This document shows, piece after piece, positions 1,479 to 11,940 of a stretch of DNA of 11,940 nucleotides. Source of the stretch: Candidatus Sumerlaeota bacterium (lineage in GTDB: Bacteria > CG03 > SLGR01); the NCBI GenBank assembly GCA_007136585.1, contig SLGR01000143.1, positions 1-11,940 of the forward strand. Reading direction: 5' to 3'. Under the pieces are notes generated by a model. The model was not told the origin of the DNA. It saw nothing but the letters and a program-made list of their open reading frames with translations, and ran no database searches. Numbering within the stretch: the stretch's first letter is position 1; every line of letters begins with the position of its first letter. Made by a program: the position numbers and the translations under genes.

Positions 1479-4193
1479 CTATCTTATAACCGAGAACCTC
1501 ACAGTTTTAGACTCCCCGTTATGGTTTACTATAAGTATGTAAACCCCGGAGGCCACTTCCTCGGCCTTAGCCCAGGATGCCCAGTTTCCGCCCCTGTGGG
1601 TGAACCTGTCAACAAGCTCGCCGGCCACATTGAATATCCTTATATCAGCCCTGGAGGGCAGGTTCCCTATTATGATCCCTCCTGAGGCACCGTGGGCCGA
1701 TCCGTAAAAATCATCGCCGGGTTTAAACGGGTTGGGATACACATAGACATCCTCCAGCGTATCGTAGGGATATACGGCCAGCCCGTACACGGAAAGCCCC
1801 GATACCCTGGTCTGAATCCATCTCTCTTCCATATTCAGCTCGAAATCTTCCGCCTTCTCCCATTCCCCGGAACTCTCGTTCAGTCTCACTATCCTGAGGT
1901 TTCTCTCGTCCGGCCTTGTAAGCGAGTCGGGATAATTGAATCTGACGGTTATACCACCGGGATACTCCGTAGCCCCGGTAACCCTGTTCTCAAACTCGTC
2001 AAGAACCGCATAATCCCTCAGCTCAACCACACCCCTTCTCCCCCCGGGCTCCAGGGCCCTGTCCGCTTCTTCAACCAGGGCTTCCTGCTCCGGGGTAAGC
2101 TTCCTTATCTCAAGCCTTGTAAGGAAATTATAGGCGTCTTCTGAGACGGTTATCCTGGATATAACCCTCCCTGTAACCTCATCCAGGAACTCCCTGTAAT
2201 ACTCGCGGTCTATGTATAGTTTCTCTCCTGATGTCACCACCTTTATAATCTCGTCCGACCAGGCTGTATTACCCGCCCTGTCCCTTGCGGCGCAGCGGAA
2301 GTAATAAGTGGTTCCGGGTTCAAGTCCGCCCCAGGTCAGAGTCGGCGAAGAGACCCACCCTTTATAACTCCAGGCGCTTCCCGTATCCCCAGTAAGGCTC
2401 TTGGCGTAGAGGTACGGCGAATCGTCAAGCCCGCTCAGAGTGTCCGATGCGGTTACAGCAAGATCCACGTTAACGCTCCTTATTTCCACCGCAGAAACGG
2501 TAATATCTTCCGGAGGCGTAGTATCGGCTATTATCTTCCACGGTCCGTTTAAGGCCCAGTCAGAGTACCGACCTTCCGTAAACCTTGCCCTTACGCTCCA
2601 GTAATAGACCCCTTCCCCGGGAACTTCTACAACAGCCCCCGTGGAGAGCCCCGCGTCAACGCTCTTTACAGCATCCTGAAGTCCGGCATCAGCAAAGACC
2701 CCTATCTCATACCATTCTGCAAGACCCTCGGGGTACTCCCAGCCCAGCTCCACATCCAGGGAGGACTCGGCGTAACCGTCTCCGGGAGAGATAAGAACCG
2801 GAGCGGGTGTTACGGCTGTCTTTGTGCTTACAGCGGGGGTGGCGGGTGTCCTCACCCCCCGCTCATCTTCGGCCACTACGGAATAGAAGTACTCAGCATC
2901 CCAGTAAGGCACTGTGGTATCGCTCCAGCTCAGCGCGGAAGTGCTCTTTACAAGGCTTACCCCCGGCTCTTCCACCGAGCTGAAAGAATGCGTGGCCCTG
3001 TATATGCGGTATGTATGAAGAATACCCAGGTCCGAACCGGCCGCCGGCCAGTAAAGGTCTATCCTCAGATCGTTCTCTGAACTGACCGCCAGGACGTTCC
3101 TAACATCATCCCCGACATCGTTAAGCTTCAGGTCGTCAATATAGACCCTTCCGGCCTCTTCAGTTACTCCGGGAGCAAAGTAGAGGCGCACCTCCTCTAT
3201 CCGGGTTATATCAATATTCCCCGTATCCGTACCCTCCCAGGACCAGTCAAGCCTCTGCCACTGGTCCAGGGTTCCGGCTGTCTGCTGACCTATGGGGTCC
3301 GAGAGGTTCCCATCCGCGTCCAGGAGCCTCACCATTATGGTGAGCGGCCTGTCAAGGGGATATCCCTGGAGGGATACCGACTTCGAGCCGCTTACCGAGA
3401 AATCGCTAATATTATTTGAGCCTGTGTAGAGCGATCCCGCAGCAAGGTAGGCGTACTCCACACCTGATTTATTATACTCCACCTGCAGGGAGTACTCTCC
3501 GTTAAAACTCTCACTTGAGGAAACAGAATACTTTCTGAAAACCCTATCCCCCGAACTTCTCCACCCGGCATCCGGGGCGTATTTCTCATCCTTACGGCTT
3601 CCGTCGTTCTCAAAAGAATCTATTACCGCCCAGGCCGGCGGGTAAGGCATATCCAGCGTTCTTACCCCGGAAGCGTTCAGATCTTCGGACCATTCCCCCC
3701 GGACGTGAGCCTTTATACCCACGTAATAGGTACTCCCCGGCTCAAGGCCGGTTATTTCCTTTTCCTCCGGGTCGCCGGGCTCTTCTGCCTCGGATATATC
3801 AACGCTCTTTACTATCTGGGCCGTATCCCACCAGTGGTTATTATCCGAAAACATAGGATCGGAAGGATCTTCAAGGCTCACAAGGACCCTGTAGACAAAA
3901 TCGCTCTGAAGCCTGTTGCCGTAGAAATCCGCCACGGCTGTCCAGGTAATCTGTATTACGCCATAGGTATCCCCGGGCCTGGCATGGAGATCCATCACAG
4001 ACTCGGGCGGGCGGAGTACGGGTTTCATACGTATCCCCAGGGAAGCCGAACCCCGTACCTCAGCCTCAGACACAGCGACAGATAACAGCACCATTAGACC
4101 CCCTGCTATTACGGTCCTGACCGCAGCGCCTATGCGACGATATTTAACTGTATTTACTACAGTCTTTACGATACACTCCTTTATATACAGCAC
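1479..4193 (-). CDS. Large secreted FN3/jelly-roll protein with type IX-like (FlgD-Ig) C-terminal domain
   Basis: 904 residues. A basic n-region (VKYRR) and core VIAGGLMVLLSVAVSEA give a signal peptide ending near residue 44. Then come a fibronectin-III domain (about 62-182), a beta-sandwich jelly roll (188-360, closing VYIDDLKLNDVG), FN3 domains at about 366-458, 462-555 and 558-655 (the last with LEPGTTYYFRCAARDRAGN), and a linker plus a beta domain (about 660-810). The C-terminal domain (about 812-904) contains VYVYPNPFKPG, IRIFNVAGELV and ASGVYILIV ... KTVRFSVIR. That pattern is the FlgD-Ig / type IX sorting type-A fold, which in Bacteroidota routes proteins through the type IX translocon and is handled by PorV; a PorV-family gene follows 6 bases downstream. 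Residues 188-458 are paralogous to a module in the giant protein upstream. The GTG at 4193 is the only in-frame standard start before the hydrophobic core; AAGG lies about 8 bases before it, yet a better AAAGGAG lies just inside the gene. The probable role is cell-surface or secreted glycan or protein binding; no catalytic motif is seen. Confidence 0.88.
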   Translation of the reverse strand: MLYIKECIVKTVVNTVKYRRIGAAVRTVIAGGLMVLLSVAVSEAEVRGSASLGIRMKPVLRPPESVMDLHARPGDTYGVIQITWTAVADFYGNRLQSDFVYRVLVSLEDPSDPMFSDNNHWWDTAQIVKSVDISEAEEPGDPEEKEITGLEPGSTYYVGIKAHVRGEWSEDLNASGVRTLDMPYPPAWAVIDSFENDGSRKDEKYAPDAGWRSSGDRVFRKYSVSSSESFNGEYSLQVEYNKSGVEYAYLAAGSLYTGSNNISDFSVSGSKSVSLQGYPLDRPLTIMVRLLDADGNLSDPIGQQTAGTLDQWQRLDWSWEGTDTGNIDITRIEEVRLYFAPGVTEEAGRVYIDDLKLNDVGDDVRNVLAVSSENDLRIDLYWPAAGSDLGILHTYRIYRATHSFSSVEEPGVSLVKSTSALSWSDTTVPYWDAEYFYSVVAEDERGVRTPATPAVSTKTAVTPAPVLISPGDGYAESSLDVELGWEYPEGLAEWYEIGVFADAGLQDAVKSVDAGLSTGAVVEVPGEGVYYWSVRARFTEGRYSDWALNGPWKIIADTTPPEDITVSAVEIRSVNVDLAVTASDTLSGLDDSPYLYAKSLTGDTGSAWSYKGWVSSPTLTWGGLEPGTTYYFRCAARDRAGNTAWSDEIIKVVTSGEKLYIDREYYREFLDEVTGRVISRITVSEDAYNFLTRLEIRKLTPEQEALVEEADRALEPGGRRGVVELRDYAVLDEFENRVTGATEYPGGITVRFNYPDSLTRPDERNLRIVRLNESSGEWEKAEDFELNMEERWIQTRVSGLSVYGLAVYPYDTLEDVYVYPNPFKPGDDFYGSAHGASGGIIIGNLPSRADIRIFNVAGELVDRFTHRGGNWASWAKAEEVASGVYILIVNHNGESKTVRFSVIR
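2820..3632 (-). repeat. Paralogous jelly-roll + FN3 module, copy in the 904-residue protein
   Basis: Residues 188-458 (WAVIDSFEND through the FN3 ending TPATPAVST) match residues 514-778 (counted from 11827) of the giant protein at 9494-10288 along their whole length. Shared blocks include YAPDA.W, ESFNG.YSL.VEY, SDFSVS, ITRI....LFFAPG or LYFAPG, YIDDLKLNDVG or YLDDLKLNDVG followed by DVRNVLA, IDLYWPAAGS, and AEYFYSVVAED or TEYFYSIIAED. By eye about half the residues are identical, with few gaps. The jelly roll resembles CBM-like galactose-binding folds and the second half is an FN3 domain; the pair has moved as a unit. Confidence 0.9.
3602..3627 (-). repeat. 26-base exact repeat, copy 1
   Basis: These 26 bases are identical to 10258-10283 on the same strand. 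They encode VIDSFEND plus flanking bases at the start of the paralogous jelly-roll module, with the same codon used at each position, while the modules around them have drifted at both synonymous and replacement sites. Confidence 0.9.
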
Positions 4194-4455: not shown

Positions 4456-5034
4456 TTAGAATGCATGCTCCACGGCGAAGGCCTCAACCGTCACGCTGAA
4501 ATCCTGCTCTTCAGTAACGGTTGTCTGCGTAGGCGTCTCCAGTTGGAACCATATACGGCGCTCGCCGTCTGCACCCACGTTCAGACCATTGTATTCATTG
4601 TGCTCTGTATCAAAAGACTTATCCAGGGCCCTAGTCACTTCTGCTATTATGACCGAGTCATCTTCACCCCAGCTTGCACCCTCGATACCACTCTCGGGAG
4701 TCGTAGTGGAACTGAGCATAACCCGCAGCCTTATCGTATCTTCATCGGGGGTTTCTCCCAGCTCCCAACCCTCAGCTGGATTTTGACCGGCAATACCCCA
4801 GTCTGCCGAAACAGAACCGGTATTGGTCACCGTAATTGTCGTATCTGTTGAGAGATAGGTCTCAGCCAGTTCAACTTCACCGAAGTTGAAGTCATCCGTG
4901 GATAACGATATAGCGTAATCCGTCGGAGGCGACATCCTTATAGTTATACTATCCTGATTATCGGCCAGAGCCGCTCCGGCTCCAAGTAACCCGATTGCCA
5001 GCGCAAGCGCCAGCGCTTTCTTTACGTGTTTCAT
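4456..5034 (-). CDS. Small secreted protein, stand-alone version of the giant protein's C-terminal domain
   Basis: 192 residues from an ATG at 5034 to TAA. Residues 1-24 are a textbook signal peptide (MKHVKKALALALAIGLLGAG, cleavage ALA/DN). The mature domain starts ITIRMSPPTDYAISLS, then FNFGEVELAETYL, TTITVTNTGSVSADWGIAG, and ends ERRIWFQLETPTQTTVTEEQ followed by DFSVTVEAFAVEH. The C-terminal ~150 residues of the giant protein (6059-6505) show the same order: HYFGQLDLGQSTM, ITVKNTGNVPVTYSIKG, ELKLWLNFRMPVQTTTPEEQ, EMSVTIGAKEH. It is therefore a single Ig-like beta domain secreted alone. No cysteine, transmembrane helix after the signal, or catalytic motif is seen. AAGGAG lies 10 bases upstream of the ATG in a purine-rich leader. 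It sits 150 bases behind the two-Ig gene, likely in the same operon. I do not recognise a named family; a shared anchoring, polymerising or structural subunit is inferred. Confidence 0.85.
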   Translation of the reverse strand: MKHVKKALALALAIGLLGAGAALADNQDSITIRMSPPTDYAISLSTDDFNFGEVELAETYLSTDTTITVTNTGSVSADWGIAGQNPAEGWELGETPDEDTIRLRVMLSSTTTPESGIEGASWGEDDSVIIAEVTRALDKSFDTEHNEYNGLNVGADGERRIWFQLETPTQTTVTEEQDFSVTVEAFAVEHAF

Positions 5035-5044
5035 TCTTTCTTTT

Positions 5045-5050
5045 CTCCTT
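5045..5050 (-). promoter_or_regulatory. Ribosome binding site of the 192-residue gene
   Basis: AAGGAG on the minus strand, ten bases before the ATG at 5034, embedded in a purine-only stretch (GGAGAAAAGAAAGA). It supports the chosen start, although the spacing is at the long end. Confidence 0.7.
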
Positions 5051-5073
5051 ACTTTCTTTTTCTTCTACATCTC

Positions 5074-5101
5074 ATCCCTCATCCTTCGTCCATCGTCCCT
5101 C
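5074..5101. repeat. Degenerate heptanucleotide tandem repeat
   Basis: Four consecutive 7-base units on the plus strand, ATCCCTC, ATCCTTC, GTCCATC and GTCCCTC, fit RTCCNTC (GANGGAY on the transcribed minus strand). Weak partial units continue at each end. It lies in the leader of the 192-residue gene, between the orphan Shine-Dalgarno and the gene's own ribosome site. Confidence 0.8.
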
Positions 5102-5117
5102 ATTTTTCCGCTATGGC

Positions 5118-5130
5118 ATCACCTCCTTTC
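5118..5130 (-). promoter_or_regulatory. Orphan near-perfect Shine-Dalgarno sequence
   Basis: GAAAGGAGGTGAT on the minus strand is complementary along its length to the common bacterial 16S rRNA 3' tail (ATCACCTCCTTTC). No gene starts correctly behind it: the triplet at ideal spacing is ATA followed by GCG GAA AAA TGA, and the overlapping ATG reads only ATG CCA TAG. It could be a ribosome loading or leader site, or a relic of a lost start. Confidence 0.65.
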
Positions 5131-5184
5131 ACTGTTAACTTATCCCTGAGACTCCTTATCAGAAACCCTCATACCGATTCTTTC

Positions 5185-6069
5185 CTACCTTACGGTTACG
5201 TTTACCCTGGAGTAGAGCCTGGCGAACTCCATCCCTTCGGGATAAACCGCTATAACAAACATCATCCTTTTTCCGCTGTGCTCCTCGGGTATCTCGGCAT
5301 AGAGGGGCACATCCCTGACCTGGTAGCTCTTTACGCTTATACTCTCAGGCTCGGCCCAGATATACTCCGTTGACGGGGTGAAACTGTAACCCTCCCTTAC
5401 GGGAAACCCCGGGTCGTTCGGGACGCTTTTTACCACAAGGTCAACGTCCTGGCGCCCCCTGTTTATTATCAGAAGGCTCCTTTCAAGCTCCTCAAGCAGG
5501 TTAACTTTCCTTCCCGCGGGTATATCTATAAAAAGAGTCTCCGGGTTGATATCATAGTTCAGCTCCGAGAGTATCCTCTCGGCCTCGGCCCTCTGGACCT
5601 CCTCAGGGCCCGGGGACCCCACCGAAAAGAAAAAATTATTTATTACCGCCGCCCCGAAAAACCCTCCCGTGACATTCTCCACTCTTATGAGGGCGTGGTA
5701 ATGCCTGCCTATATACTCTTCGTTATCCGGAACGTTTAAAATAAGGCTGGCCGGCATACTCTCTCCGCCGCCAAGCTCAAACTCAGAGGGCCTTACAGTA
5801 AGCCAGTTGGGGTCGGCAATGGGTTCGTACCCCTCCCGGGGGTTCCGCGGAGGAAGAACGCTTACCCTGACATTGCCTTTCTTTGACCCCCTGTTCATCA
5901 CAAGAAACGGCAGGTCCCTCATATCTGTCAGGTTATAGACCCGACCCGCCTCCACGTGTTCAAGGACTATCGTGCCGTACCTGGTCCCTATGCTTACCCC
6001 TGCTGCGGCATCACCTGCCGCAAGCGGAAGCAAGAGAGAAAAAATAATAAGAGTTAACCTACTCTTCAT
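5185..6069 (-). CDS. Secreted protein of two Ig-like repeats (294 aa)
   Basis: Starts at an ATG at 6069, inside the end of the giant gene (11-base overlap ATGAAGAGTAG), with AAAGG three bases upstream; this indicates translational coupling. Residues 1-23 form a signal peptide (LTLIIFSLLLPLAAG, cleavage near AAAG). Two homologous beta-rich halves follow. Repeat A (about 30-152) has AGRVYNLTDM, LPFLVMNRGSKKGNVRVSVLPP, EGYEPIADPNWL, a PSEFEL strand and LILNVPDNEEYIGRHYHALIRV. Repeat B (about 178-294) has AGRKVNLLEEL, SLLIINRGRQDVDLVVKSVP, EGYSFTPSTEYIW, and PLYAEIPEEHSGKRMMFVIAV. A short charged linker (EEVQRAEAERILSELN) joins them. The pattern 'N.G......v.v.P ... W ... P...l..g ... iP....G' resembles Ig-fold chaperone-like or DUF916-like domains of WxL-associated proteins, but only by eye. 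Its position between two proteins sharing one C-terminal domain suggests it works with that domain, perhaps as a periplasmic or surface partner. No lipobox cysteine is seen. Confidence 0.85.
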   Translation of the reverse strand: MKSRLTLIIFSLLLPLAAGDAAAGVSIGTRYGTIVLEHVEAGRVYNLTDMRDLPFLVMNRGSKKGNVRVSVLPPRNPREGYEPIADPNWLTVRPSEFELGGGESMPASLILNVPDNEEYIGRHYHALIRVENVTGGFFGAAVINNFFFSVGSPGPEEVQRAEAERILSELNYDINPETLFIDIPAGRKVNLLEELERSLLIINRGRQDVDLVVKSVPNDPGFPVREGYSFTPSTEYIWAEPESISVKSYQVRDVPLYAEIPEEHSGKRMMFVIAVYPEGMEFARLYSRVNVTVR

Positions 6070-9000
6070 GTTCCTTTGCCCCTATCGTTACAGACATCTC
6101 CTGTTCTTCCGGCGTGGTTGTCTGTACCGGCATCCGGAAGTTAAGCCATAACTTGAGCTCCCCGCCCTTGGGGATATTCACCCCCGCCTGGCTCCCGTCA
6201 ATGGTATAATCCGTGACGCTGCAGTCACGGTATTCTGAAAGTATTATGTTACTATAAGTATCAAAGGCTTCCTTGGAAGGTTTCTCATTATGAAAAGCGC
6301 CCTTAAGGACAAACTCGTCCCACCCCTGTTCTCCGGCAAAAAACCACGGGGTCCCTTCGGTCAGGGTTGATCCCTTGATACTGTAGGTTACCGGGACGTT
6401 TCCGGTGTTCTTGACTGTTATAGCCTCTACGGTCATAGTTGACTGTCCCAGGTCAAGCTGTCCGAAGTAGTGCTCCTCCGCCGTTATGGTAACCGAGGTT
6501 ATTTTCTGCACCTCCGCACCGGCAGTATCGGAGCCCTCCGACCAGAAGCCCTTATCGTCTCCTGTCCAGATCTTGAAGTAGTAAGTGACTCCCCCGGCCA
6601 GGTCATCTACAAGGTAGGAGTGTGCAATATCCTCACCGGTGCTGGTGGAGAAAGTCACACTGTACCTGTTATCCCTGTCGTAGTCCCAGACTTCTTCCGT
6701 CTCATCCCAGTCGCTTATCCAGTCAACCCCCGGAAAGGTTGACCACCTTATCCTGTAATACCCGTCACTGATCTCCTCGGGAGCGGTCCAGGTAAGTTTT
6801 ACGTCCCCGTCCTCAAGATCCTCCGCGGAGAGGGGGTCTATGGTTTCCAGGGCAACCGGCCACTCCGGGGGAGAGACGGTTGTACCAAGCCACGCCGCTC
6901 CAATGTGTAAATCAATATTATCAAACTCACCAAGCTCATCAACTCTTCTTGTTGTACGAATACGGAATTCTCCTTCTATTCCCTCCCGAGTATCACTTTC
7001 TAATTCAAATGTGATTTTTTTCCATTCTTCTGTACTTATTTCCTGCCAAGCACTATAAGCGCCAGTCCAACTATATCCCGGACGCCTAATCCCAAGTTGT
7101 AAAAAACCTTCCCCTTTAACCCACATTTCCCCATAATATTTAACAACTTTACCATCCCCTTCTTTGTAAAAAAACTCTTGGGTAATATCACTATTGCTAA
7201 CAATACTATGAGCAATATTAAGCGAAGTCTCGCCGACAAGTAATTCAGCAGACTCTGAGTAGTCACCAGGTCTGTCAGAAACCCACTCAATCGGAATTTC
7301 ATTCCACTCCTCAAAAAACTCGTTAAAGAGAAAGTTATTATCCCCGGCCTTAACCGTAAAAGTCGCAGTACCTATATCAAAATCTATGTAGATCTCTATA
7401 CTCTCGCCTTTTTCGGAAAGCTTCCCAGAAAGATAAGATTCAAATATTATCAGGTCCTCACCAATTAATCCGTACTCAGTATCTTTTGTTAGATCACCCA
7501 CATCATCACTTACAGACTCCACTGTTTCCGCATCATTCAATATTATTGTAGTTGTTACATCCCCGGGAGCCTGAAGGTTATAGACCGCCAGCTCCGGGAA
7601 TATCTCACCTCCAACTGGAGGCGGAAGGGTCGTGGTGCTTCCCGATACTGCGTATTCTTCCAGCTCCGGCCACTGGCCTTCATCGTTAAAGGCATAGACC
7701 GTGAAATAATAAGTGGTCTCGGGATCAAGCTCCGTAAAATAAGTGTTGCTCGCAGTAAGACCGTCTTCAAAACTAATCTCAAGGTCCGGGAAGGCGGAGC
7801 CCGGGTCGGAGAACCAGTCAGCGCTTGATACCTTTACCCCGAACCTTGTGCCTTCCGGGTTAGCCGTAGACGTAGACCAGGATATGGTAACCGAACTTAT
7901 ATTTACTTCTTCAAAAACAAGGTCAAAGGGAGGAGCCGCGTAGGTATAGGCCGATTCAATGTTAGATTTGCTTAAAGGAGTCCCGTCTTCGTATGCCATT
8001 ACATACCGGGAATATAGAGTGTTTACATCCAGATCCTCTTCAGTCCAATCAGTTACTTCACTGCCGAACATTACCAGCTCTCCATTATCCTCGGAATCAA
8101 AAATCCTGTATTCATCGGCTTCCGGAACCGAAGACCAGTCCCAGTTAATGGTATTAGTAGAGATTGCTGTACCGGTAAGAGTAATATCTTCCGGCAACTC
8201 GTGCGCTATTAACTCTGCATCATCCCAGTTAAATATTCCATCGGCATTAGTATATTCATATTTCATTCCGACGCGTACTATATCCGTCTCGGATGGAGCG
8301 ATACCCTCAACATAAAACTGCGACCAGGTTTCCGCTTCCATAAAATCCTCTTCTCCTATTGAAAGAGTGCTGGAGGATAAAACAGCATCAAATTCATCAA
8401 GAAATTTTATATACATCTCCAGTTCTTCAACATCACCCCATGACCAGTCATGTGAAGGCCAGCCATATATACTGAAAATATAATTAGACCCTACTTCGGC
8501 TTCTTCATAATCCTGCCAGGCTTCACCGTAGGATTCTTCCCAGAAAGTCATTGACTTGTCACCCGTACGACTTTCAGCCCAACTTTCATAAACTACACCA
8601 GGTCCTTCGTCAACCCAATGTTCAAAAATGGGATCTCCTTCATCAAGGTCTTCAAAAGAGGGATTAAGGAGCAGGTTTTCAAAATACTCTATAACCCTGA
8701 CAGATGCCGTCAGTGGATCATCACCTGCCAGACCGGATGCGAGGACTGTAACAGTCCCTATCCCGGTCTCAAAAGATAAATTGTCGGTAAGTCTTACTTC
8801 GGCCTCTGTTTCGTTTTCCCGGCTCACCGAATCAATTGAAAGCCCGTCAAAGTCGCCACCCAATAAAATGTCGCTGGGATCCAGCCCGGCATCAAATGCT
8901 TCATTTACAAGGGTAAGAGTGAATGTCTGGTCAAACTCTTCATCTTCCGTTACTTCATACGGTAATATATTAACAGCGGACTCCTCGGTTTCAGTAACCA

Positions 9001-11940
9001 GAGCCATATCGTAGTAAACGGCCTGTTCCTCAAAGGAACCTTCGGTAGTGATAAGGAAACGTCCGTAGTGGGTATTCTCAGGGGCGGTGCGCAACCCGAC
9101 AAGTTCTATCCAGGTATCCAGTTCGCCTCCGGCCAGAAGAGAGTCGATAAGTATCGTATTCCCTATCTGATCATCCTGATCATCAAACCATTCCAGTTTC
9201 AGTTCAAGCCGGGAATTACCCTTAAGTGGCTCTGCGGAATCGTCCCTTGCCCTCAGGCTTAACTTATATGATGTTCCGGACTGGGCATCAAAGTCCTGAT
9301 ACATTCCCGTCCCCCCGTCAAACCTCTTAATCTCCCAGTCTCCATCGTAAGGATCATCCCCGGCCCACCAGCCGGGCCCCCAGTGTACCCAATCATCTAT
9401 ATCTGCATCACCAAGTGGTCCGTCCTGACCTACTCCGTCCTCAAAAGAAGGGTTATCCAGTAAGTTGACTATAATGAGCTCGGGAGTGGTGGTACTGACA
9501 TTTACTGTCATTGGAGAGGTTCTCTCCTGGGTATCTTCGGCTATTATAGAGTAGAAGTATTCTGTTTCCGGCTCCACATCCGTATCTGTCCAACTCAAAG
9601 ATGTGGTACTGTATACAAGGTCCTCTTCTTGGGGAGAGGTAAAATCTGATTGAGACCTGTATATATGGTACTCATCCATCTTGCCTTCAACAGATCCGGC
9701 AGCGGGCCAATACAGATCTATCTTATGCTCTGTCTCAGAAGCTTTCGCAAGAACATTCCTCACATCTGACCCCACATCATTAAGTTTTAAATCGTCAAGG
9801 TAAACGGTGCCGGAAGCAGTACCGTCACCGGGCGCAAAAAACAAATATATCTGGTCAATCCGGGTTATATCAACTCCATCAAGCTTTCCTTCATCCCAGG
9901 TAAACTTAAGTTCCTGCCATTCATCTGGTGTTTCCGCAGTCTTAGATCCTATATCTCCAGACTCATTGTTGTCAGCATCCTCAAATGTCATAAGTATTTC
10001 CAACGGTTCCCCCTCCGGATATACCCATATAGATATTGAACTTGATTTACTTACGGAAAAGTCGCTTACATTATTTGAGTCATACAGATCACCGGCCCTG
10101 AAAGTCGCCCACTCACCTTCAGTTTTGTCATATTCAACTTTAAGGGAATATGACCCGTTAAAACTTTCCTCATCAGTTACATAAAAGTTATGATACACAT
10201 CATCATCAAGGGTCCACCACTGCGCGTCGGGAGCATAGGGTTGACTGTCATGGTGAGCGTCGTTCTCAAAAGAATCTATTACCACCCAGGAGGGAGCAAA
10301 GGTGGGCCAGTCGGTAGGCGGCGGCTCGGGTCCCAGCCAGGCTGCGCCTACATATATTACACTATTACCGTTCGGCCTGACTGCAGCTATCCTTATCCCT
10401 CCAGAAGACCCTTCAGTATCATTCAATCTTTCATGTGTAACCCTCGTCCAATCATCATCATCAAGTGTAACTACACTTCCGTAAGTTGCCAAACCACCTC
10501 CTCCTCTTACAATACCAACCCTTACATCTCCCGTTCCTTTAACCCATGCTTCTGCATAATAGGTTTCTCCAACTTCTAATGTATGGTCAAATTGGTTAAG
10601 ATTTTCTTCACCGGTAGTTGTCTGATTAACTCGAGCTGAATAATCACCCACAAGATTGTTTTCTGAATCACGTAAAACTCGAGAATCTGTACCTGTATAG
10701 TCCCAGTTATGCAATAGTGCAGCAGAATTGTACGGATCATCCCACTCTTCAAAATGCCAGTTTAGAAGCAAATTTGGTTCAACTTCATAAAGTGTTACGT
10801 GCTCTGTTTTATCGTCATCAACGACAACGCTGTCTTCAACCGTCTGGAATCCTTCTTTTTCTACTGTGTAGTCATAGGTGCCTTCCGGCACATCTGTAAA
10901 TACCGCCAGCCCGTCCACTCCCGTTATTTTGTTATCTATACCTACAAGCGTAACCGTGGCCCCTTCTACTGAGAGTGTGCCCTCGTCCTGAACATTAAAG
11001 GTTATCTCATATTTGGGTATCTCCGTGGTATTGACATTAAGGGTTATAGTGTCGGAGTCAGAAACAGAAACAGATTCGTGTTCATCATCTATTGATGCGG
11101 TAAGGTCTCCTGATTTGTCTATACCTGCAGCAAAGGTTATATCAAGTTCTGCTACACCGTTCTCATCGGTATTAACTTCTATCCCGGCCCCCACCAGGTC
11201 TGCTTTATCTCCTTCGCTGACGGAATCAATATCGTCTTCAAGAAAATCAGAGAGTGAAAAGTTTACCGGGATATTCTCAATAGATGCGTCAAGTTCAGCT
11301 GTATAGGTTTCTGTAGTAGTAGTATCATCGGCTCTTATATCCGTCTCGCCGGTTAATGTTACTTCGCTGGCTTCTTCGGGAACTTCATGAAAGCTAACTG
11401 TATCAAAAACTTGACGGCTACTGCTATCAACATGCCTGGCAGAAATTTTAATTATTGCCTTTGCTGTTTTTGGCGGCGCCTGCGCCACAAACTCCTTTTC
11501 CTCCCATGCCTCCTGAGCCGATAAACTGATTTCCCCGCTTGTTGATGTATCAATATATGTATCATCATCTTCGTACCACAGGATTTCCAACTGCAGGCGC
11601 TGATGTGCCCAGTGTGTTCCGGGAGCCATCCAATAAACCGAAACCGCATAAGATTTGTCCGCAGACAATCCTGTTATATAATTATCTAACTCCAATTCAC
11701 GTGAAGGGAAGGTACCTGCCACATTTGCCCAGGTAAAACTCTCGTCGCCTGTGTGATTTTCACCCGTATATTCATAGTCAGGAGTACCTGAAGTTGACCA
11801 TGTCCATTTGGCGTTTGCTTCATCCAACTCAAAACTCGGATCATGATCTTCTTCTGTAAGAAGTCCCGGGTCATAACCGAGGTCAGCATAAACATCTGTG
11901 GAAGAGGCAATTATAGAGATGACAATAATAAGGGGCGCGA
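6059..11940 (-). CDS. Giant secreted CBM-like/FN3 multidomain protein, 5' end cut by window edge
   Basis: Open from the window edge to a TAG at 6059, giving at least 1,959 residues. The edge codons encode APLIIVISIIASSTDVYA before DLGYDPG, a signal-peptide core and cleavage site, so the true start lies just outside and the in-frame TTG at 11827 is internal. Counting from 11827, domains are: CBM4/9-like jelly roll (DPSFEL, up to ~148); Ig-like Big_1 type (~155-268); carboxypeptidase-regulatory/PEGA-like (~273-348); jelly roll (~353-500); jelly roll plus FN3 shared with the 904-residue protein (514-778); jelly roll NLLDNPSFEDG (~787-945); Ig-like (~950-1046); jelly roll NLLLNPSFEDL (~1050-1208); two FN3 (~1212-1400); CBM_X2-like domain (~1412-1495, DTEYGLIGEDLIIFESYLSG); jelly roll (~1497-1648); FN3 (~1660-1774); and the C-terminal domain shared with the 192-residue protein (~1775-1922). 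It is acidic, with one cysteine and no catalytic motif seen. A surface or extracellular glycan-binding role is inferred. The next gene overlaps its stop. Confidence 0.88.
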   Translation of the reverse strand, partial: APLIIVISIIASSTDVYADLGYDPGLLTEEDHDPSFELDEANAKWTWSTSGTPDYEYTGENHTGDESFTWANVAGTFPSRELELDNYITGLSADKSYAVSVYWMAPGTHWAHQRLQLEILWYEDDDTYIDTSTSGEISLSAQEAWEEKEFVAQAPPKTAKAIIKISARHVDSSSRQVFDTVSFHEVPEEASEVTLTGETDIRADDTTTTETYTAELDASIENIPVNFSLSDFLEDDIDSVSEGDKADLVGAGIEVNTDENGVAELDITFAAGIDKSGDLTASIDDEHESVSVSDSDTITLNVNTTEIPKYEITFNVQDEGTLSVEGATVTLVGIDNKITGVDGLAVFTDVPEGTYDYTVEKEGFQTVEDSVVVDDDKTEHVTLYEVEPNLLLNWHFEEWDDPYNSAALLHNWDYTGTDSRVLRDSENNLVGDYSARVNQTTTGEENLNQFDHTLEVGETYYAEAWVKGTGDVRVGIVRGGGGLATYGSVVTLDDDDWTRVTHERLNDTEGSSGGIRIAAVRPNGNSVIYVGAAWLGPEPPPTDWPTFAPSWVVIDSFENDAHHDSQPYAPDAQWWTLDDDVYHNFYVTDEESFNGSYSLKVEYDKTEGEWATFRAGDLYDSNNVSDFSVSKSSSISIWVYPEGEPLEILMTFEDADNNESGDIGSKTAETPDEWQELKFTWDEGKLDGVDITRIDQIYLFFAPGDGTASGTVYLDDLKLNDVGSDVRNVLAKASETEHKIDLYWPAAGSVEGKMDEYHIYRSQSDFTSPQEEDLVYSTTSLSWTDTDVEPETEYFYSIIAEDTQERTSPMTVNVSTTTPELIIVNLLDNPSFEDGVGQDGPLGDADIDDWVHWGPGWWAGDDPYDGDWEIKRFDGGTGMYQDFDAQSGTSYKLSLRARDDSAEPLKGNSRLELKLEWFDDQDDQIGNTILIDSLLAGGELDTWIELVGLRTAPENTHYGRFLITTEGSFEEQAVYYDMALVTETEESAVNILPYEVTEDEEFDQTFTLTLVNEAFDAGLDPSDILLGGDFDGLSIDSVSRENETEAEVRLTDNLSFETGIGTVTVLASGLAGDDPLTASVRVIEYFENLLLNPSFEDLDEGDPIFEHWVDEGPGVVYESWAESRTGDKSMTFWEESYGEAWQDYEEAEVGSNYIFSIYGWPSHDWSWGDVEELEMYIKFLDEFDAVLSSSTLSIGEEDFMEAETWSQFYVEGIAPSETDIVRVGMKYEYTNADGIFNWDDAELIAHELPEDITLTGTAISTNTINWDWSSVPEADEYRIFDSEDNGELVMFGSEVTDWTEEDLDVNTLYSRYVMAYEDGTPLSKSNIESAYTYAAPPFDLVFEEVNISSVTISWSTSTANPEGTRFGVKVSSADWFSDPGSAFPDLEISFEDGLTASNTYFTELDPETTYYFTVYAFNDEGQWPELEEYAVSGSTTTLPPPVGGEIFPELAVYNLQAPGDVTTTIILNDAETVESVSDDVGDLTKDTEYGLIGEDLIIFESYLSGKLSEKGESIEIYIDFDIGTATFTVKAGDNNFLFNEFFEEWNEIPIEWVSDRPGDYSESAELLVGETSLNIAHSIVSNSDITQEFFYKEGDGKVVKYYGEMWVKGEGFLQLGIRRPGYSWTGAYSAWQEISTEEWKKITFELESDTREGIEGEFRIRTTRRVDELGEFDNIDLHIGAAWLGTTVSPPEWPVALETIDPLSAEDLEDGDVKLTWTAPEEISDGYYRIRWSTFPGVDWISDWDETEEVWDYDRDNRYSVTFSTSTGEDIAHSYLVDDLAGGVTYYFKIWTGDDKGFWSEGSDTAGAEVQKITSVTITAEEHYFGQLDLGQSTMTVEAITVKNTGNVPVTYSIKGSTLTEGTPWFFAGEQGWDEFVLKGAFHNEKPSKEAFDTYSNIILSEYRDCSVTDYTIDGSQAGVNIPKGGELKLWLNFRMPVQTTTPEEQEMSVTIGAKEHEE
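6884..7339 (-). repeat. Internal CBM-like repeat B of the giant protein
   Basis: Residues ~1497-1648 (NNFLFNEFFEEWN ... EMWVKGEGFLQLGIRR ... LHIGAAWLG..PPEWP) match residues ~353-500 at 10328-10774 (NLLLNWHFEEWD ... EAWVKGTGDVRVGIVR ... IYVGAAWLGP..PTDWP). This is an internal duplication of one jelly-roll type, distinct from the NPSFED type. Both copies are AT-richer than their surroundings: bases 6901-6960 contain 20 G or C of 60. Confidence 0.8.
9494..10288 (-). repeat. Paralogous jelly-roll + FN3 module, copy in the giant protein
   Basis: Residues 514-778 counted from 11827 (WVVIDSFEND to PMTVNVST) are the counterpart of residues 188-458 in the 904-residue protein at 2820-3632. The blocks DDLKLNDVGSDVRNVLA and KIDLYWPAAGS are nearly the same in both. 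In the giant protein the module sits between two CBM4/9-like jelly rolls, while in the other it follows a single FN3. Confidence 0.9.
10258..10283 (-). repeat. 26-base exact repeat, copy 2
   Basis: Identical over 26 bases to 3602-3627, at the start of the paralogous module and encoding VIDSFEND. It is the longest exact match I noticed between the two genes. Confidence 0.9.
10328..10774 (-). repeat. Internal CBM-like repeat A of the giant protein
   Basis: Partner of the repeat at 6884-7339. The best-matching blocks are the N-terminal LLLNWHFEEW, the central AWVKGTGDVRVGIVRG and the C-terminal YVGAAWLG. It is followed directly by the module shared with the 904-residue protein. Base composition turns AT-rich just inside the GAAWLG end, as in the other copy. 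Confidence 0.8.

Follow-up and report, generated by a model that had tools for sequence, protein, structure and literature searches.

Contig SLGR01000143.1 of a Candidatus Sumerlaeota bacterium (assembly GCA_007136585.1), analysed here over its whole length of 11,940 nucleotides and referred to as the window, encodes one C-terminal domain twice, as the tail of a giant binding protein and as a small secreted protein, with a gene for a second secreted protein containing two immunoglobulin (Ig)-like domains, hereafter the partner, lying between both copies. Such trios are found in many uncultured bacteria and appear to be an equivalent of Gram-positive WxL surface anchoring. With moderate confidence, we favour the view that the shared domain is a surface docking or assembly domain, bound by its dedicated partner and displayed by an export machinery resembling the type IX secretion system (T9SS).

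The two copies of the domain in the window

The window is one entire contig of a genome that is 88% complete and comprises 1.88 Mb in 257 contigs, and its main genes and all the features described below lie on the minus strand. Genes were called by simple open reading frame (ORF) selection, and visual inspection, not a dedicated predictor, was used for signal peptides and N-terminal strands. The giant protein (6059–11940; ORF and Pfam matches) comprises at least 1959 amino acids with FN3, CBM_4_9 and CBM_X2 domains, the 5′ end of its gene missing because the contig stops there, and carries the shared domain at residues 1800–1954 (6077–6541; hidden Markov model (HMM) match 4e-47), 5 residues short of its C-terminus. 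The partner gene (5185–6069), whose first 11 bases coincide with the last 11 of the giant gene, encodes 294 amino acids with a signal peptide and two Ig-like domains. The free protein (4456–5034), identified by its ORF, by BLASTP to the giant tail and by its place in the tree, begins with a signal peptide of about 24 residues ending in AALA (4963–5034), followed in the mature form by a strand of alternating hydrophobic residues, SITIRMS (4930–4950), which is a candidate donor strand, and by the domain core at residues 42–185 (4480–4911; HMM match 1.1e-39).

Comparison of the free protein with the giant tail gave a BLASTP E-value of 2e-13 with 26% identity across 149 residues, and a Smith–Waterman score of 140 against a mean of 33, a standard deviation (SD) of 6.1 and a maximum of 77 in 1000 shuffles, that is, 17.5 SD above the mean. 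Within the giant protein just the last of the segments compared scored against the free protein, with nothing else close. The E-value, the shuffle test and the absence of any other scoring region together confirm the homology between the small secreted protein and the tail of about 155 residues that a preliminary description of this DNA had proposed from shared motifs. In an alignment by eye the motifs FGEVEL/FGQLDL, ITVTNTGSV/ITVKNTGNV and IWFQLETPTQTTVTEEQDFSVTV/LWLNFRMPVQTTTPEEQEMSVTI (free/giant) follow in the same order, so that the FG and ITV motifs and the common ending cited in that description stand, whereas its W.L segment is only loosely common (GWELGE in the small protein, TPWFFAG in the giant). 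The 192 residues that it took for the mature protein are those of the precursor, the mature form having about 168. Its statement that no named family matches held at the curated cut-offs of Pfam and NCBIfam, which neither the window's domain nor its partner exceeded for any family.

Distribution, position and phylogeny of the domain family

Searches were made in one sample of genomes, many of them fragmentary, and the loci examined were partly chosen for holding a domain or partner match. An HMM built from the two window copies found the domain both at the C-terminus of numerous large proteins and alone in small secreted ones, as the preliminary description had anticipated; it matched 12 of 98 genomes, ten of them in the small phylum of the window. 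After widening to 31 sequences, matches were obtained in 26 of 386 genomes, 16 of which fall outside the phylum, in 11 families. A profile scan of a separate contig collection with a two-row alignment gave no match, and a closer six-row alignment recovered six loci there, with metagenome-assembled genomes labelled Elusimicrobia bacterium (four) and Caldiserica bacterium among them. Free and tail forms often occur in one genome and on one contig, inside the phylum as well as in families outside it.

The family has at least 55 members, 34 of them larger proteins (up to 3830 residues) or fragments and 21 small, a signal peptide being visible in nearly all of the latter. The domain is present once per protein in the 55 aligned members and ends 2–7 residues from the C-terminus in 53; the others are one protein cut at a contig end and that of locus L048, in which the domain stands at the N-terminus of a protein with a separate CHU_C tail that exceeds the Pfam cut-off.

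These regularities bear on a reading in which the domain is an ordinary Ig-like or ASH domain of the choice-of-anchor D type, shuffled among proteins with no common docking function. Weak sequence matches to choice_anch_D do occur in 10 of the 55 members (best E 3.3e-7), and the HYDIN/ASH Ig families match weakly too. The likeness is confined to the first third of the domain (FG...TNTGN), that is, to its first strands, and the window copies stay below the cut-off of NF012200 (16.7 and 18.8 bits against 45). Given that a fixed C-terminal position, a single copy per protein, a free form and a conserved partner gene are unlike the shuffling of a generic repeat, we regard this reading as very improbable.

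In a maximum-likelihood tree, the tail of the window groups with the tails of genomes G001 and G004 (support 100/99), and its free protein with the free proteins encoded in those genomes (100/99), implying that both forms have been kept in parallel since before those genera split. These separate, strongly supported clades lead us to reject, for the window, a recent origin of the small gene by duplication of the giant tail. Deeper forks of the tree are weakly supported, with at least three label changes between free and tail; at L047 the small copy and the tail copy are sisters and look like a recent free/tail pair. Judged from the branching pattern, interconversion of free and tail forms has occurred in the family.

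Conservation of the partner gene

The suggestion of the preliminary description that the giant protein docks through its tail is strengthened by the partner, a conserved third gene which it had missed and whose product resembles WxLIP and PapD-type chaperones. A relative of the partner lies within two genes of 19 of the 21 free-domain genes and of 16 of the 34 tail genes. Treating genomes as independent, the domain and partner families are both present in 23 of the 386 genomes, where 2.0 would be expected by chance (hypergeometric 2e-28), and outside the phylum of the window in 14, where the expectation is 0.8 (2e-19).

Partner relatives have one or two domains. The one-domain type tends to follow tail genes (L036, L040, L044, L045), and two-domain partners tend to adjoin free-domain genes, with exceptions that include the window, where a single two-domain partner has the tail gene on one side and the free-domain gene on the other. 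Two-domain partners stop on or soon after their last strand, and those with one domain have a short cationic amphipathic segment at their end, e.g. KGFFKRIFGWILK, as if made to contact a membrane or another protein. Segments of the type KGFFKRIFxWxxK were noted in the one-domain partners of L036 (15245–15736), L044 (8561–9055), L045 (167–667) and L047 (3648–4196).

Predicted structures and the pilus alternative

An AlphaFold2 model of the mature free protein, built with 31 family members, is a β-sandwich (predicted local distance difference test score, pLDDT, 79.7), and the giant tail, being homologous, would be expected to share this fold. Residues 1–12 of the model score below 50 and have no fixed place; a strand of alternating hydrophobic residues is seen at the N-terminus of 19 of the 21 free proteins. 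Structural matches of the model are weak and mixed (best Foldseek E 2.7e-3, best Z 7.3), comprising ASH/PapD-like domains, type 1 and CFA/I pilins, Csu, archaeal filaments and cannulae, and the domain profile run against PDB sequences returned HYDIN/CFAP Ig domains and chance matches.

The partner model has a two-Ig fold (pLDDT 94.3). Its top match is the WxLIP protein of E. faecium, 9i1y, with Z 12.4 over 198 residues and a root-mean-square deviation (rmsd) of 13.7, high because the angle between the domains differs, both domains matching. This Z is just slightly above that of other Ig pairs and tied with ciliary Ig pairs and PapD-family chaperones: the N-terminal domain matches Caf1M, FimC and PapD with Z 11–12 and rmsd 2–3 Å, and the model matches Caf1M with Z 12.1 and rmsd 2.2 over 105 residues. 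With the partner profile, WxLIP also ranked first among PDB sequences, at an E-value of 0.09 which is not significant.

The resemblance to chaperone–usher systems (FimA/FimH/FimC, Csu, Caf1) is architectural, consisting of a free subunit, an adhesin with a like C-terminal domain and a PapD-like two-Ig partner, while the arginine 8 of PapD is not conserved in the partner family and the pilin fold match of the domain is weak. A classical pilus of this class is rejected, as no usher (PF00577) was found in 16 genomes of the phylum, which are incomplete, with a positive E. coli control. A donor-strand pilus assembled with no usher is a possible but doubtful alternative. The free protein would be the fibre subunit, the giant the tip adhesin and the partner a periplasmic chaperone, the N-terminal strand of each free protein completing the next subunit or the giant tail. 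The extra strand of the free proteins, left unplaced by AlphaFold2, the resemblance of the partner to PapD-family chaperones, and the presence of FimA, FimG, CfaB, Csu and archaeal and cannula fibre subunits among the best Foldseek matches all favour it, and such an arrangement has its classical precedent in tip adhesins that end in a pilin domain. Against it, the fold matches (best E 2.7e-3, Z at most 7.3) are equally good for ASH/MSP domains, the phylum lacks a detectable usher, and the partner or the domain is fused to T9SS-type tails at some loci.

Donor-strand exchange between secreted subunits is also described for TasA/TapA and archaeal filaments, with a chaperone acting by strand complementation for TasA (PMC9674648, PMC10151520, PMC9715654). 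The present proteins are comparable in these respects; no sequence relation to those systems was found, which are Gram-positive or archaeal. To our knowledge, neither has a counterpart of the giant tail.

Export genes and sorting tails

T9SS-like export genes are present in the same genome and at the same locus. A SprA/Sov relative of 1727 residues is encoded in the genome (TIGR04189, E = 1e-53; at 182 bits just short of the cut-off of 200), and SprA_N matches occur in 8 of the 16 phylum genomes. PorV-like proteins, as well as FN3 proteins whose sorting tails resemble types A and B, adjoin the trio of the window and related ones. In the window these are a PorV/PorQ family outer-membrane protein (555–1472; NF033709, 150 bits against a cut-off of 90) and a 904-residue FN3 protein (1479–4193), whose residues 818–901 form a type A-like tail (TIGR04183, 25.2 bits against a cut-off of 23). 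On plasmids, PorV relatives gave just two distant matches.

These genes, together with the near-constant position at the extreme C-terminus, could suggest that the domain is a new type of T9SS sorting signal, with the free protein as a small cargo or component carrying the signal. Type A and B sorting domains (TIGR04183, PF13585) are likewise C-terminal on large secreted proteins; the present domain differs in its length of about 150 residues, its free form and its partner gene, and it matched none of TIGR04183, TIGR04131, PF18962 and PF13585. We consider this explanation unlikely. Neighbouring proteins at the same loci bear conventional tails of the A or B kind, the domain of L048 is N-terminal with a separate CHU_C tail, and the partner gene beside 19 of the 21 free copies is left unexplained. 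Moreover, no C25 (PorU-type) peptidase was found in the genome, such peptidases appearing within the phylum in one family only. A CHU_C-type tail over the Pfam cut-off is fused to a partner domain at L129 and L130 and to the shared domain at L048, which suggests a final location of these modules on the surface and a usual export signal other than the shared domain.

Proposed mode of action

In the surface-docking reading that we favour, the shared module would be a C-terminal β-sandwich docking domain, borne as a tail by the large protein and standing alone in the small one. The two-Ig partner would bind it in both forms, probably by β-strand complementation in the manner of PapD-type chaperones and of the predicted action of WxLIP. 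All three products would be secreted by Sec and then reach the outer surface by a T9SS-like route comprising the SprA-like translocon and the PorV-like proteins, and the tail would fix the large binding protein, with its FN3 and carbohydrate-binding domains, to a complex of small protein and partner. The N-terminal strand of the free protein would be suited to donor-strand exchange, whether among subunits or with the giant tail.

Several observations weigh against this scheme. Partner relatives were absent within two genes of 18 of the 34 tail genes, some of them at contig ends, and no partner was detected in genomes G009, G100 and G240, in which a tail is present. Among the structures closest to the partner are HYDIN, SPD-2 and OCRL-type Ig domains as well, so that a PapD-like fold is no proof of a chaperone role, and the alignment places an arginine at position 8 of FimC/PapD in only some partners. 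Finally, the T9SS-type tail fusions at three loci are easier to reconcile with a complex on the surface than with a chaperone confined to the periplasm.

A bolder extension, which we regard as rather unlikely, is that the trio belongs to a widespread, undescribed class of surface fibres of uncultured double-membrane bacteria, in which donor-strand subunits are capped by giant adhesins, assisted by a PapD/WxLIP-like chaperone, and exported through a T9SS-like translocon that replaces the usher. Our literature search, which covered few subscription journals, returned nothing relevant on T9SS-linked systems of the WxL or pilus kind in these lineages. If the docking reading is correct, the system may be in common use for attaching very large surface proteins among bacteria about which little is known, and may be a case in which PapD-like pairing proceeds in the absence of an usher; PapD-like chaperones, WxLIP and T9SS-type display would then be connected in a single system. 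The domain could serve as a marker for giant adhesins in metagenomes, with the partner as a concrete protein to test.

Comparison with the WxL clusters of Firmicutes

The WxL/WxLIP clusters of Firmicutes (PF13731, PF06030; PMC10599100, PMC9772566) comprise a small WxL protein, a large protein with a C-terminal WxL domain and WxLIP, a strand of which is predicted to complete the WxL sandwich (PMC10599100). Further clusters were gathered from plasmids with a composite query based on general knowledge, the matches being checked by annotation, and on E. mundtii plasmids small WxL, WxLIP and large WxL genes stand in a row. A three-part arrangement of this kind is found in the window and, for example, at L032, L033, L118, L119 and L124, with a small protein made of the domain only, a large protein with binding domains before a C-terminal copy, and an adjoining secreted two-Ig partner. 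This modular logic of free domain, tail and partner matches the WxL clusters without detectable family membership, and the partner model shares two tandem Ig-like domains with WxLIP.

The differences are clear at the level of sequence. Instead of two W-x-L motifs, the domain has two conserved tryptophans, the second within W-x-x-L/I/F-x-x-P followed by a further strand. No C-terminal transmembrane helix was seen in the partners, by eye, and the present host carries outer-membrane secretion genes. PF13731 matched none of 21 genomes, including those of the phylum, at E ≤ 1, with a positive Lactococcus control, and hhalign of the domain against 10 WxL sequences gave a probability of 0.3%. No WxL chain is among the structural matches listed for the domain, which excludes nothing. 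Between the partner and WxLIP a weak link was obtained with hhalign (P 0.0013, probability 18.6%; cross controls P 0.04 and 0.38). PF06030 (WxLIP_PGBD) matched 4 of 34 partner members at E ≤ 0.1 (best E 0.0036), with no match at E ≤ 0.01 in 16 genomes of the phylum. Direct membership in the WxL or WxLIP families is thus not supported by PF13731, PF06030 or hhalign; by analogy of architecture, the locus would work like a WxL cluster, membership not being established.

Related clusters and other genes of the window

At L041 (genome G014), an O-antigen ligase gene (Wzy_C; 5227–7035) directly adjoins partner and free-domain genes, and a membrane protein with a similar N-terminus occupies the same kind of place at L120; the ligase is possibly an enzyme that O-glycosylates surface proteins. 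Two near-identical small secreted proteins are encoded at L151 (1545–8080, G348) together with a partner-like protein of 266 residues, which exceeds the WxLIP_PGBD cut-off, a 934-residue protein with no NCBIfam match and a 478-residue protein; this cluster may be another chaperone–subunit system. At L155 (1397–3602, G281), two similar secreted proteins of 172 residues, which the domain HMM does not detect, adjoin a partner-like protein of 269 residues; the theme is the same as that of the domain/partner loci.

A promoter and terminator scan of the spacers between the window genes was uninformative. The start of a DUF11-repeat surface protein (3–419) lies at the contig end, on the same strand as the locus. 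Lastly, the 904-residue protein and the giant have in common a block of about 350 residues (181–537 and 543–898, respectively; 47% identity), made of FN3 and a carbohydrate-binding-like part, which on this alignment is a second segmental duplication within the locus.

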